A stretch of DNA of 64,000 nucleotides. Origin: Antedon mediterranea. Taxonomy: Eukaryota; Echinodermata; Crinoidea; Comatulida; Antedonidae. Every line of letters starts with the position of its first letter. Within the stretch, counting starts at the first letter, position 1. The stretch spans positions 7,474,312 to 7,538,311 of the forward strand of contig NC_092675.1 in assembly GCF_964355755.1 (NCBI RefSeq), in the 5' to 3' direction. The notes beneath the pieces are model-generated. The model saw nothing but the letters and a program-made list of their open reading frames with translations. It ran no database searches and was not told the DNA's origin. Positions 286-36,409 of the stretch are shown one piece after another. The translations under genes were made by a program, and so were the position numbers.

Positions 286-525
286 ACTGCTCCGTCACAT
301 TATGAAGCACAACTGTTAATAACTGTATACTTTATGTGTGACAATGGCTAAATGATAGACTTGAAGAGAAAGGATTTTGCTTATTACATTTAATGTCACC
401 ATCATCCTCAAACAGATTTTTTGTTGTGCCTTAATGCAAAGTGCAACTGTCAATAATATACTTTACGAACAATGATAGCTAAACGCAATAGTCATTCATT
501 AATTGTACATCTGCTTGTTTGATAG

Positions 526-2567
526 GAGGAGATCGCAATCGACCAGTCACCACAGATGACTTTAAAGAACTCAAATATCTTGACTGTGTTATCAAAGAAA
601 CACTTCGTATGTACCCTTCTGTTCCCATATTTGGACGTACTATAGAAGAATCTATATCAATTGGTAAGTTTTTCGGACCAATGTTAAAAAATACTTAATT
701 TCTTTATATAATGATTAATTTGATGTCATACGGCTGTTTCTTTTTATTATTATTATTACTTTGGTTTTTTTTCCCCATTTATTCGATAGTGATTTATTGT
801 CTCATTTATTTTATCTGTTTACTTAGTTAATTATATTAATTTAGTTTGCAAAGGGTCTTATATCTCAATTTTGAAATTCCGACTTATGTCTGATTTCTCT
901 TGCATGTGCTACATATGGTCAATATTCTTTCAAAAACTCCTTTCTTGACAAACATATATTACAGAAGTAATGAAATAAAGTATAAAGAATAAGAATAAAT
1001 AATACAATTGTGGTTTTAAATAAATATTTTGAATTATTTCACATTTGAAAATTGACATTGACTATTTCCATAGTGTTTGTGATATTTCTAGGAGTACCAT
1101 TCAAAACTGATAGTAATATAATTATTGCTTATTATCTAAATACTGTGATTCTTCTTTCTAGGGGGGAAAACAGTTCCAGAAGGAACGCAAGCCATTATTC
1201 TCACCTACGGCTTGCATCGAGATGAACGCCATTTCCCAGAACCTGAAGAGTTCAGACCGGAGAGGTTCTTGCCGGAAAACTGTGTTGATAGACATCCATT
1301 TGCTTATGTGCCATTCTCTGCCGGACCAAGGAATTGCATAGGTACAATTGTGAGACTGTTAGTGAGCATTTTCTAAAGCTCTGTCTACACTATCAAATGA
1401 GTTTGACAAAAAAAGTGTCCAAATTATGGTAGTGATATGACATCATCATGTCCGTATATGGGCACATCACATTCTGTTGTCACATAAAGTTTGATAGTGT
1501 AAACAGAGCTTTAGACTGTCTTTGCTAACAAGTTTAAACATGCAGAAATTGTCACCAGAGAACTTGAATATCCTGGTATCTAGACCAAATGCCCCAGATA
1601 AAATGTTTGTGCTAAGAGAAAGTAGCGTGATTGGCGAACAATGTTAATAAATAAATTAGAATAAAAGTAAGAATATGTAAGGTCACTACACAGTCCTAAA
1701 AATTTGGTGCGTGCGTACCCTTAACATTTTCTAGTCAACTCCATCCTCTAATGGTCCGGCTAAACAAAATGGATAGCCATTAAAATTTAAGTAATGATGA
1801 ATGGCAGAGTTATCTGAAGACATTACATCATCAAAAACACACCCTAATTGTATTTATTGTTGCATCTTAATATAGTCTGTTTTTAGTATCCCATACTGTA
1901 CAGTATGTTTCCAATTAATCCTGTGTTGAGAGCGAGCTGTCCCTTAGCGATGACATGACAATGACAACTTCTTTTATTTTCTTTGTAAATAAAGTAGATA
2001 AATAAACTACAAAATTAACATTTATAATTAAAAAATTGATTTAACCAAAGAAAAGAGGAAAATTCTTGCTTATAAATAAAAAAAAACCCCATTTAAATAT
2101 AAAATTCATTAATAAATGTAAATCAGCTCAAAATAATAATTTTATAGAAGTTTTCCAATAAAATACTACATTTAAACTAAGCAAACAATTTAGTTTTTAT
2201 TTTTGATTTATAAAAGAATGGGTTTACAAATTACTTTCTGAAATCAAATGCGTATATATTTACATAACTTTTTAAAAGTAATTTTTCTTGAACAAATTGT
2301 GATCATTTTAATCGCTTGAGGTATTTTATTAGGATACCTGCCAGAATAGTTTTATAAATGTCAAATTATGCTTATTCTTTGTCATATGTGTTTTACTATC
2401 TTTCAGGTCAACGTTTTGCAGTCTTTGAGGAGAAAGTAATCCTTGCACACATATTCCGAAGGTTCAATGTTGAATCCGTTCAAGAGTTTGACGACCTCAA
2501 GATACATGGAGAAATTATTCTACGTCCATCTGCTGGAATAGTTGTAAAGTTAACAAAAAGGAAGTAA
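526..2567 (+). CDS. CYP4V: Cytochrome P450, CYP4V-like, 3' part of gene (last three exons)
   Basis: Exons 526-663, 1162-1341 and 2407-2567 join in frame (phases 1 and 1) and end at TAA 2565-2567. The first acceptor could also be at 528. The product is the C-terminal third of a family 4 P450, a heme monooxygenase of the endoplasmic reticulum; CYP4V enzymes omega-hydroxylate fatty acids. Exon 1 carries the K-helix ExxR (KETLR) and the preceding YLDCVIKE; exon 2 has the PERF block (FRPERF) and the heme-binding loop [10 protein letters not shown] with its axial Cys; exon 3 has the L-helix (QRFAVFEEK) and the C-terminal ILRPS segment. The order and wording match vertebrate CYP4V2 closely. The N-terminal two thirds (membrane anchor, I-helix) must lie left of base 1. 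A MITE and AT-rich sequence fill the second intron. The family 4 assignment is firm; the subfamily is inferred from remembered similarity. Confidence 0.9.
1374..1513. mobile_element. MITE, AAGCTCTGTCTACAC family
   Basis: The element has terminal inverted repeats starting AAGCTCTGTCTACACTATCA and ending in the complement, with TA at both ends as a likely target duplication. The interior carries the family words TGGTAGTGATATGAC and GGGCACATCACATT. It lies in the second visible P450 intron. TA duplication suggests mobilisation by a Tc1/mariner-type transposase; the autonomous partner is not seen. Confidence 0.85.
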
Positions 2568-3732: not shown

Positions 3733-6390
3733 ATGAGTGAACTTGCATCGCACTGGGAAGCACTAAGAAAACAACGTGTAATTGATAGAAAACATGCTGC
3801 GTTGAAACGAATGAAAGAAGAAAAGGTGAGTTTATAGAGAGAGGCATAGCCTACTCTGTTGTTGTAGAGGTGAGGACTAAGCGGTGTCTTCATACATGAC
3901 TTCATACTCTGTATAGTGTTATATCCTACATGTATGTATTATTACATAGGCCTACAGCCTGCTGGTCTATTTATACTTTTATGCGCGGGTAAGCACACAC
4001 AAGTGTGATGATGATAATGTGTTCCGGGCCTGCACGACGAATGTTTATGAAACACGAAAACTATATCATAAATATAATGTTTGTATTTTTTATTCGTGTG
4101 TGTTTTTTTAGGAAAGACAAGAAAGAGAATTTGCCGAAGAAGAATACAGAAGAGCATGTATTTTAAGAGAACAAGAAGATCAAAGAAAACAGGAACTTTC
4201 AAATCAAATAAAATCCGGATCAAAAACAGCTATAAAGAAATCATACAGAGACAGAGAAAGGTTCGTTAAAAATTAAATATCTAAACTAGGCAAAATAAAA
4301 AAAATATATATATAATTTTATTTATAACTTGTGAATTTAAAGCAGATCATGTACACGAAAGTGATCGATACAGGATGTAGAGCCAAATAGAAATAAATGA
4401 TAAAGACGCTTATAAATTACCAATTGAACTTAATCTTCAGCAGGTGCTTGGCTCTGACTGAGAGTCAAGCACCTGAAGATTGAGTTCATACTCATGAAAC
4501 AGCCTGCAGTGCAATAAAATTTTAAATTGGTAATTTACAAGCGTCTTTATCATTCATTTCTATAATTTTAATTAGGTTTCCCCCCCCCCCCCCCCCACCT
4601 CCTCTGGTCCCCTCTGGTTTAGTATAACGCAGTGACTCAAACCACATGTGGAGATACTACGAAGATATACAATTTAATACAATAGAAATAACAAAAAGCG
4701 ATTGTAGTGTAAGCATAAATTGCACTCTGTTTAAAGAATGAATGATTAACATGTCACGTCTTTTCACACATTCATTGTGTTAGGAAATATGACAATGGAA
4801 TCCGTCACTACAAACAAGGGTATCGGTCACTGAAAATACAGCTTTAGGACGTTGAAAAGTCAGGCTAGGATCAAGCTAGGATCGTAAAGAAACAAGACAA
4901 AAAAAACTGAGCATCTGTCTAGAAACAGATAATAAAACTTGACTCTAGTTTTGTTGAAGTTCGATTTAATGAAAATTGTAGTTTTTTGCTGTGAAACAGT
5001 TTAATAAACTTTTGTGTTAAAATGTACAGTATTTTATTAAACGAAATAAACTGAATATGATGACTGTATTTTGTTATTACTGAGATTAGTAAGAATATAA
5101 ATGAACCATCGCATCAGTATCTCTATTAAAATGAAACAAGTATACCATTTTCAACGTATCCGGATATTCACCCCCTGGACATTTACCCCCCAAAAAAATA
5201 ACCCCCGGAAAATTACCCCCCCGGACAACCACCACCTGGACAACTACCCCCTTAGGACAACTACCCCCTTAGGACAACTACCCCTTTAGGACAACCACTC
5301 CCCGGACAATTACCCCCTAGGAACAATTAACCCCCGGACAATTACCCCCCCCCCCCCCCGGGTAATTACCCCGCGGACAACTACCTCTGAGACAATACTC
5401 CCCGTAGGACTCCTGGACCTGGACAATACTCCGAGGGCAAATAATCTTTTAGGACAACTACCTCCGTAGGACAACTAACCCCTGGACAACTACCACCCAG
5501 ACAACTATCCCTTTAGAACAACTATCCCCCGGACGGACAACTACCACCCAGACGATTCAACAACCTGACTCTGCAACAGTGTATAATAGGAATTAATAAC
5601 TATATTTTAATTCGTTACTTTGACGAATTACTATTCATTATTGTAAACAAAAGTAAAAGATTGAACATAAAATATAGCCTGGTGTCAGGTCTCTGGTCTC
5701 TGGTCTAGTCTCTAGTTTCGAAACACCCGTTAAAAACAGATGATTTCATCATTTTTACAGAAACCGGTCCTATATATTTGTCTACTTTTGGATTGGAGGG
5801 GGGGGGGGGTAGTTGACCGGGTGGTAGTTGACCGGGGGGTAGTTGACCGGGGGTAGTTACCCGGGAGGTAGTTACCCGGGGGGTAGTTATCCTAAGGGGG
5901 TAGTTGTCCTAAGGGGGTAGTTGTCCGGGTGATAGTTGTCCGGGTGGTTGTTATCCTAAGGGGGTAGTTGTCCTAAGGGGGTAGTTGTCCGGGGAGTAGT
6001 TGTCCGGGGGTAGTTGTCCTAAGGGGGTAGTTGTCCGGGTGGTAAACATCCGGGGGTGACTGTGTCTAGGGGGTAGGTGTCCTAGAACCCATTTTCAAAA
6101 TAGAACCGCAATAAGTTCGTCGAATACGGATTTTCATAAAAGAATTTAATGAATTTTATGTGTAGCGCCCTCTATTTACAAACTTTTTTGACAACTTTTT
6201 TAGAACAATACAACGGCTTCAGGAGGAACGAGAATGGCACGACGAGATGATAAGACACATGGACAAGAAAGAAAGACAAGATATTTATACAGATATGATG
6301 AGAGATCATAAACATAAGTCTAAGGTGCTACGTGATCACGGAATCTATAGAGGCGATCCTAAGTTTTTTATTGACCCTCAATATGCCTAA
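3733..6390 (+). CDS. Small charged coiled-coil protein, 142 aa, unrecognised; possibly ciliary
   Basis: Exons 3733-3825, 4112-4260 and 6204-6390 join with matching phases (0, then 2) and good donors and acceptors, except a weak GTTCGT donor at 4261. The start is the first ATG after the X-box (MSELASHWEALRKQR). The product is almost entirely charged helix rich in Glu, Lys, Arg and Gln (KRMKEEKERQEREFAEEE), with no signal peptide or membrane segment. It ends in a distinctive non-helical tail, HGIYRGDPKFFIDPQYA. This style recalls small ciliary or sperm microtubule-associated proteins, but I cannot match it to a named family. AATAAA at 6584-6589 is a plausible polyadenylation signal. Intron 2 holds two foldback elements. 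Gene reality is well supported by clean joins; function is unknown. Confidence 0.75.
4388..4561. mobile_element. Small foldback MITE with a second nested hairpin
   Basis: Outer arms at about 4388-4425 and 4522-4561 are near-perfect inverted repeats (AATGATAAAGACGCTT against AAGCGTCTTTATCATT). Inside, 4433-4480 forms its own stem around GGTGCTTGGCTCT / AGAGTCAAGCACC. It sits in intron 2 of the coiled-coil gene. Both stems would extrude as a hairpin within a hairpin. Confidence 0.8.
4572..4600. repeat. Homopolymer C tract
   Basis: An uninterrupted run of about 16 C just right of the foldback MITE. Similar G or C runs occur at about 5344-5360, 5798-5810, 6688-6700, 31767-31793, 41758-41774, 55826-55838 and 61879-61894. 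Confidence 0.8.
5145..6098. mobile_element. Foldback transposon with tandem-repeat arms (TU/FB-like)
   Basis: The left arm (about 5160-5560) is a run of imperfect copies of GGACAACTACCCCCTTA; the right arm (about 5797-6086) is the same unit inverted, TAAGGGGGTAGTTGTCC. A roughly 235-bp non-repetitive loop lies between. The 10-bp word CCATTTTCAA flanks both sides (5145-5154 and 6089-6098), as expected of a target-site duplication. Drosophila FB and sea urchin TU elements have this architecture, with long inverted arms built of short direct repeats. No transposase is encoded. It lies in intron 2 of the coiled-coil gene. Confidence 0.75.
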
Positions 6391-9295: not shown

Positions 9296-9445
9296 TAAAG
9301 CTGTCTACTGTATACTATCAACTCAAATGCGATGATGTGCCCATATAAAGACATGAGGATTTCATATCACTACCATATTTGGGCATATCACTACCATATT
9401 TGGGCACATTACACTTTTTTGATAGATAAGATAGACAGAGCTTTA
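9296..9445. mobile_element. MITE, AAGCTCTGTCTACAC family, decayed ends
   Basis: The copy starts TTAAAGCTGTCTACTGTA and ends ATAGACAGAGCTTTAA. The interior contains GATGTGCCCATAT and two copies of ATATCACTACCATATTTGGG, shared with the other copies. Confidence 0.75.

Positions 9446-15951: not shown

Positions 15952-36409
<20,458 letters not shown>

Follow-up and report, generated by a model that had tools for sequence, protein, structure and literature searches.

The window (the whole stretch of 64,000 nucleotides from Antedon mediterranea analysed here) contains, in an intron, a gene-less foldback transposon of 935 bp (5155-6089) that very probably belongs, as a non-autonomous copy with an internal deletion, to a foldback family of Mutator-like (MULE, FLYWCH/Phantom-type) character, moved in trans by a transposase of the type encoded by another copy, L031, with a stagger of 9 bp. 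In the proposed mechanism, a FLYWCH-MULE transposase of this type would act in trans on the family ends, recognising their tips and excising the element, presumably by cut-and-paste, and reinsertion with a staggered cut of ~9 bp would leave a 9-bp duplication.

Anatomy of the window copy

The element starts with CGTATCC (A end) and ends with TAGAACC (B end), borders that were placed by comparison with other copies of the family. Its parts are as follows, in window coordinates:

5146..5154, + strand: left target-site duplication CATTTTCAA, 9 bp, from family comparison of flanks
5155..5560, + strand: A end and A arm, the 7-bp tip CGTATCC followed by degenerate 15/17-bp GGACAACTACCCCC(TTA) units
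5561..5683, + strand: left core segment, 95-99% identical to other family copies
5684..5728, + strand: right-end remnant of a nested second-family foldback, with the deletion junction at ~5683/5684
5729..5737, + strand: 9-bp duplication GTTAAAAAC belonging to the nested element itself, right copy
5738..5795, + strand: right core segment
5796..6089, - strand: B arm and B end, reverse-complement units terminating in ...TAGAACC
6090..6098, + strand: right target-site duplication CATTTTCAA, 9 bp

Tandem arrays (TRF) run from 5170 to 5554 on the left and from 5804 to 6082 on the right, and the two arms oppose each other, with ungapped pairings that include a 68-nt stretch at 93% complementarity and a 30-nt stretch at 100%. 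This bears out an earlier note on this DNA, which had described inverted arms of tandem repeats around a 235-bp loop; the spacer between the arms measures ~235 bp (5561-5795). Units of ~17 bp, as described in that note, are present but are intermixed with 15-bp units (TRF), and the mixture is degenerate. The window copy has both structural marks of a foldback element, namely long inverted arms of tandem direct repeats around a spacer and a target-site duplication outside the arms. The flanking repeat had been put at 10 bp; the duplication is real but comprises 9 bp, since the right tip that other copies conserve (...TAGAACC) extends to and includes the C at 6089. Within the window the 10-mer CCATTTTCAA occurs solely at 5145-5154 and 6089-6098 (0.56 matches expected), and the 9-mer CATTTTCAA occurs six times (2.41 expected). 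Since 10 of 100 shuffled windows also carry CCATTTTCAA two or more times, the flanking 10-mer pair proves little by itself, and the weight of the argument rests on the family data.

A genome-wide family with conserved tips

Searches of the genome (354 Mb, 18 contigs) gave 1279 + 1342 matches to a 28-base unit pair, 131 + 128 = 259 to the 21-base tip A and 133 + 151 = 284 to the 21-base tip B, all with ≤2 mismatches and each with 0 matches to the reversed control. The earlier note had proposed searching for the unit in inverted pairs, and the tips bear such pairing out. Exact-match ends among the matches listed, rather than all 259 and 284, were paired, leaving out 10 of the 100 A ends listed, which lie beyond the last B end listed; a B end faces the A end in inverted orientation within 30 kb in 78 of these 90 cases. 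The A-to-B distance is ~1.5-2.5 kb in 65 of the 78 pairs, smaller in three and wider in ten, and the longest pairs may be chance pairings. A-type tips seem to stand at both sides of one copy (L015), and another two (C2:24627634 and C2:24629743) face each other 2.1 kb apart.

Arms of short degenerate tandem units, flanked by a 10-mer pair that is weak alone, might also be expected of a satellite or minisatellite in which two blocks by chance lie in opposite directions, without transposition. Consistent with this explanation, 12 of the 100 exact unit matches listed in the first 30.2 Mb of contig C1 have no same-strand tip listed within 800 bp; against it, the other 88, spread over 31 of the 35 clusters, sit no more than 800 bp inward of a conserved family tip listed on the same strand and in the right orientation, so the one-direction satellite against which the earlier note had cautioned did not appear. 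The tips moreover pair convergently, and family copies have target-site duplications and empty sites. Tip pairing and duplications rule out an ordinary satellite, and we give chance opposition of satellite blocks next to no probability.

Target-site duplications and empty sites

Exact direct repeats of 7-12 bp flank 34 of the 48 A-B pairings at the fetched loci (22 of 9 bp, nine of 8 bp and one each of 7, 10 and 12 bp, the 12-bp one within an AT repeat), compared with 3 matches in 2248 when flanks of different loci were swapped, all three of which share a site (L014/L018, L027/L028) among the rows shown. The rows are partly non-independent, with shared flanks in L014/L018, L022/L041 and L027/L028 and two rows for each composite copy. 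The 14 pairings without an exact duplication comprise the inner ends of four composites (L010, L021, L024, L026), four matches of 8-9 bp with one mismatch (L013, L014, L022, L041) and six with none (L011, L012, L047, L050, L057 and L055, the last having 6 bp with one mismatch). In the composites an extra A or B end adjoins the inner 22-bp array; the outer ends of L010, L021 and L024 have a target-site duplication, and the outer B end of L026 lies beyond the stretch examined.

The L014 copy is located in repeated DNA, and its joined flanks align uninterrupted, over almost their full length, to C11:9260992 (84%) and C7:16570331 (81%). Each of these two places has the target 9-mer a single time, with one differing base in one of the two; a third, weaker match across the junction lies at C5:19100583 (74%, query 103-300). 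As paralogous empty sites without element or duplication, the first two support precise insertion at L014. The flanks of the window copy are single copy in the genome search: when joined, they hit nothing but the left and right halves at the window site itself, and no paralogous empty site was found. Inverted tip pairs, duplications mostly of 8-9 bp and the empty sites at another copy (L014) agree with the earlier assignment of the window feature to foldback elements.

The right flank of one filled site recurs with 97-100% identity at nine places (C1:2876761, 2879681, 9016884, 11812928 and 11815850; C4:14763076, 20247453 and 20252290; C10:12291826), so there the host repeat seems to have been multiplied with the element inside.

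A transposase-bearing copy

L031 (C2:22959617-22964275, 4659 bp; A end at 518 and B end at 5176 in locus coordinates) carries both family tips and a 9-bp duplication, CTTTTAAAT, and between its A arm and core has ~2.97 kb of sequence that is absent from the short copy compared, L009. Pfam, which was applied to L031 frames only, recognised a MULE transposase domain between the family ends (PF10551, E 3.7e-16) and, N-terminal to it as in Phantom elements, a FLYWCH zinc finger (PF04500, E 3.2e-8; two exons joined by hand at GT/AG borders). The frames searched give FLYWCH and MULE domains and not the THAP/P-type transposase of the P superfamily. This one copy has the transposase domain; the window copy encodes none. 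By domains, rather than by a transposase tree, the family is Mutator-like and Phantom-type. The earlier suggestion of a distinct family is upheld by its conserved tips, its hundreds of copies and this single transposase-bearing one.

Besides introns, the L031 frames, read by eye, include a frame change near L031:2080-2105, which makes the activity of this copy doubtful. No intact transposase source was found with a 2956-bp DNA query, which recovered a single full copy of the region among the best 40 of 112 candidates. Those 40 include four pieces of 312-526 bp, 98% identical, from the 3' end of the L031-specific region, and these adjoin arm units in L032-L035. The match extends far into the core in L032, L033 and L035 and stops soon in L034; L035 has no recognisable tip, and L032 and L034 have the A tip only. 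We read these four loci as deletion intermediates, which would connect L031 to the short copies. The left core of short copies contains ~225 bp without a match in L031 among the matches listed. A repeat of ~100 bp (L031 ~2340-2453; query 1281-1394) lies between two transposase exons and has many genome matches at 81-91%.

A rival on this point would place the foldback in a different superfamily (hAT, Merlin, or P-type as in Galileo), and the MULE gene of L031 would then be a chance insertion. Duplications of 8-9 bp are by their length alone compatible with hAT, P or Merlin elements, and the gene is in a single copy only. Set against this are the four other places at which the 3' part of the L031-specific region recurs, at 98%, beside arm units, and the fit of the family's duplications, mostly 8-9 bp, to the MULE range of 8-11 bp given in an excerpt of PMC6446971. 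We regard another superfamily as very unlikely and infer that an L031-type protein is the mover of the short copies.

Other coding candidates were rejected or gave nothing. Among the matches listed, ten A-B pairs exceed 3 kb, and five were taken for coding candidates, those of 3.2, 13.6, 17.7, 18.8 and 19.0 kb being left out. Inspection by eye recognised nothing in the reading frames of the long pair L029 and, in L030, frames of a LINE-like reverse transcriptase. L027 and L028 represent one region present in duplicate (98.4% identity), and inserted in its A arm is a different inverted-repeat element (L027 2011-5668, also in L028) with arms of ~640 bp and tandem units of 151-307 bp. The longest reading frames of seven copies of 1.8-2.1 kb are mostly read-throughs of the 22-bp array (by eye). 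Related MULE fragments at C5:17813639 and C4:13301323 (74-76% identity) were rejected as family copies, having no family tips at ≤3 mismatches; no long inverted arms were found around them, and of the loci with such fragments L036 has no arm units and L037 has three left-type units.

A second foldback nested in the first

Typical copies have a central 22-bp array, which is itself a piece of a foldback, with GGGTGTTTCGAAAC... tips at its ends and GTTAAAAAC on either side. Inner pieces of 200-600 bp with both ends number 36, in 35 loci (within L009-L059), and in 35 of these the left and right flanking 9-mers are identical; a looser test on 12 named loci found both inner ends in L031, L035 and L056 also. 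By hand tally, 38 of the 48 loci holding a family copy have both nested ends, seven have one only (L019, L020, L033, L034, L038, L047, L050) and three have neither (L014, L015, L018). The 22-bp unit pair has 876 + 779 genome matches (≤3 mismatches; control 0). Six places were fetched outside the first family: L060 and L061 carry both second-family tips and their own duplications (ATGTTACAGT and ATCATGCAC, respectively), L065 has both tips and L062-L064 have one tip each. No transposase-like frame was recognised by eye in L060, L061 or L065, the frames of L065, considered as a second-family transposase, being LINE-like (by eye).

This distribution suggests a single insertion of the second foldback family into an ancestor of the first, after which the two were copied together. 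The window copy retains only the right end of the nested element (5684-5728) and one GTTAAAAAC (5729-5737). A nested foldback with a single fixed duplication is a clean marker for the order of events, and the fixed module is the unusual part of the family; we found no described case of one foldback family fixed inside another among titles and the starts of abstracts, in a search outside which most subscription papers lie. More speculatively, and with a probability that we put well short of even, the two families may form a two-tier foldback system, in which a Phantom-type MULE foldback permanently took up a second foldback as an internal module, in coding and short copies, and spread genome-wide. 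The 22-bp units of the module would recombine with the outer element to give doubled ends, and deletion products that had lost the module, the window copy among them, would then have spread alone.

Origin and age of the window copy

Among the best 40 of 575 candidates, three places are 95% identical to the greater part of the spacer of the window copy, and the other matches listed are 99% identical to its first 139 bases. Its deletion junction, AGCCTGGT/GTCAGGTC, is common to L019, L020 and L038, of which the last two lie <7 kb apart, and the window copy, L019 and L020 have differing target-site duplications. Read most simply, these sequences go back to a single deletion, after which the shortened element transposed; separate deletions, each at this short match, are a possible alternative. 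Most likely, the window copy arose from a short copy by loss of most of the core, including most of the nested foldback, and then landed in the last intron of its host gene. Core divergence over ~369 bp has a median of 1.5% in 40 segments (range 0 to 5.2%; some loci give two segments), and for L031 the median difference from the other cores is 3.5%. Activity of the family seems to have been recent.

Host gene and predicted RNA hairpin

The host gene has three exons (by eye) and encodes 142 aa in all:

3733..3825, + strand: exon 1, read by eye; outside the protein searched
4112..4260, + strand: exon 2, homologous to PDB 8snb chain 1o
4261..6203, + strand: last intron, containing the element; GT..AG borders by eye
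6204..6390, + strand: exon 3 with the stop codon, matching PDB 8snb chain 1o

The translation of exons 2-3 matches PDB chain 8snb_1o (142 residues; E 1.8e-25), which is labelled meiosis-specific nuclear structural protein 1 and belongs to what we take to be a sea urchin sperm axoneme entry. The intronic position given in the earlier note is supported by these two exons, which bracket the element (by eye and by the PDB match). Upstream, at window 492-2567 on the + strand, lie exons that we presume to be those of a CYP4-type cytochrome P450.

A long RNA hairpin, also proposed earlier, is plausible: the predicted fold of the element is thermodynamically very strong because of the arms, at -479.2 kcal/mol compared with -326.7 (sd 7.2) for 20 shuffles, none of which was as stable. 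That fold, and the end of the element 114 bp upstream of the last exon, would suit an element kept in the intron for a regulatory effect of its hairpin RNA on the host gene, be it on splicing, on editing or on the production of small RNAs. Hundreds of copies elsewhere and a foldback structure that follows from the transposon arms argue otherwise, making retention for such a function highly improbable. Very stable intronic hairpins are a possible source of double-stranded RNA, which we offer only as a suggestion.

The same intron contains a palindromic MITE-like element (window 4387-4563) with 42-nt arms, 93% complementary, and inner palindromes. Elsewhere in the window TRF reports a 32-bp unit array (33889-35471; 49.5 copies, 93% matches) and short arrays of a 21-23-bp unit, CATATCACTACCATATTTGGG, at 9363, 29095, 38561 and 41380, one of them reversed.

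Comparison with known systems

Drosophila FB/NOF and sea urchin TU elements have inverted arms of short tandem units and target-site duplications of 8-9 bp. The Antedon family resembles these elements in both respects, and the likening to FB and TU in the earlier note holds for the structural class; the closest documented matches are MULE foldbacks, nematode Tm1 and mosquito Muta1.

In the excerpted account of Tm1, a Mutator/Foldback family of root-knot nematodes (PMC3169594), the likeness extends to asymmetric 7-bp tips followed by GGA in both families, arms with a variable number of tandem units (13-15 bp in Tm1), target-site duplications that range from 8 to 10 bp and mostly have 9, one reported FLYWCH-MULE copy beside many deleted ones, and derivatives that retain only sequence 3' to the MULE domain, comparable to L032-L035. 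Tm1 differs in its tips (CGGTTAA / CCTACCC, here CGTATCC and GGTTCTA) and unit (CGATTCAGTATCCGC, here the 15/17-bp GGACAACTACCCCC), which makes the Antedon elements a different family of the same architecture. There are tens of Tm1 copies and hundreds of tips here. In Tm1 an unrelated inverted-repeat element is described as nested in one copy (PMC3169594, same excerpt), whereas most fetched Antedon copies share one nested foldback. Since the architecture matches and the sequences differ from Tm1, the family is, on sequence comparison, a new member of a kind of foldback already known.

The Muta1 and Muta5 MULEs of Aedes aegypti likewise have a MULE transposase, TIRs with subterminal tandem repeats of 12-15 bp, target-site duplications of 8-9 bp and hundreds of deleted derivatives; Muta1 differs in that its TIRs, of 145 bp, are shorter and that several of its coding copies are nearly identical, and its transposition was shown in yeast (excerpt of PMC5225508). 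According to the same excerpt, 10 of 12 long-TIR MULE families of A. aegypti have subterminal repeats of 9-15 bp and all 14 of 14 MULE families have duplications of 8-9 bp (PMC5225508). The composite copies, with their additional ends, are reminiscent of the multiple TIRs of some plant MULEs, as these appear in part of PMC3310237.

In Galileo, of the P superfamily, binding sites for the transposase lie within the tandem repeats of the foldback-like arms (PMC3688188, in excerpt), and by analogy the 15/17-bp tandem units of the Antedon arms may be arrayed transposase-binding sites; the Galileo transposase is of the P-type, with THAP, whereas a FLYWCH-MULE is found here. Tetris of Drosophila virilis shares the foldback anatomy, target-site duplications of 8-10 bp and tandem units inside the arms, but its units are ~220 bp and no transposase copy was found for it, Tetris being suggested as a Mutator element from duplication length and precedent (excerpt of PMC4079207). 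The gene that moves a foldback is not always found, Tetris being an example (PMC4079207, in part); in Antedon a FLYWCH-MULE protein is encoded by a copy that shares the family ends, and the family adds a case to the view, stated in that excerpt, that most foldbacks are Mutator-type (PMC4079207).
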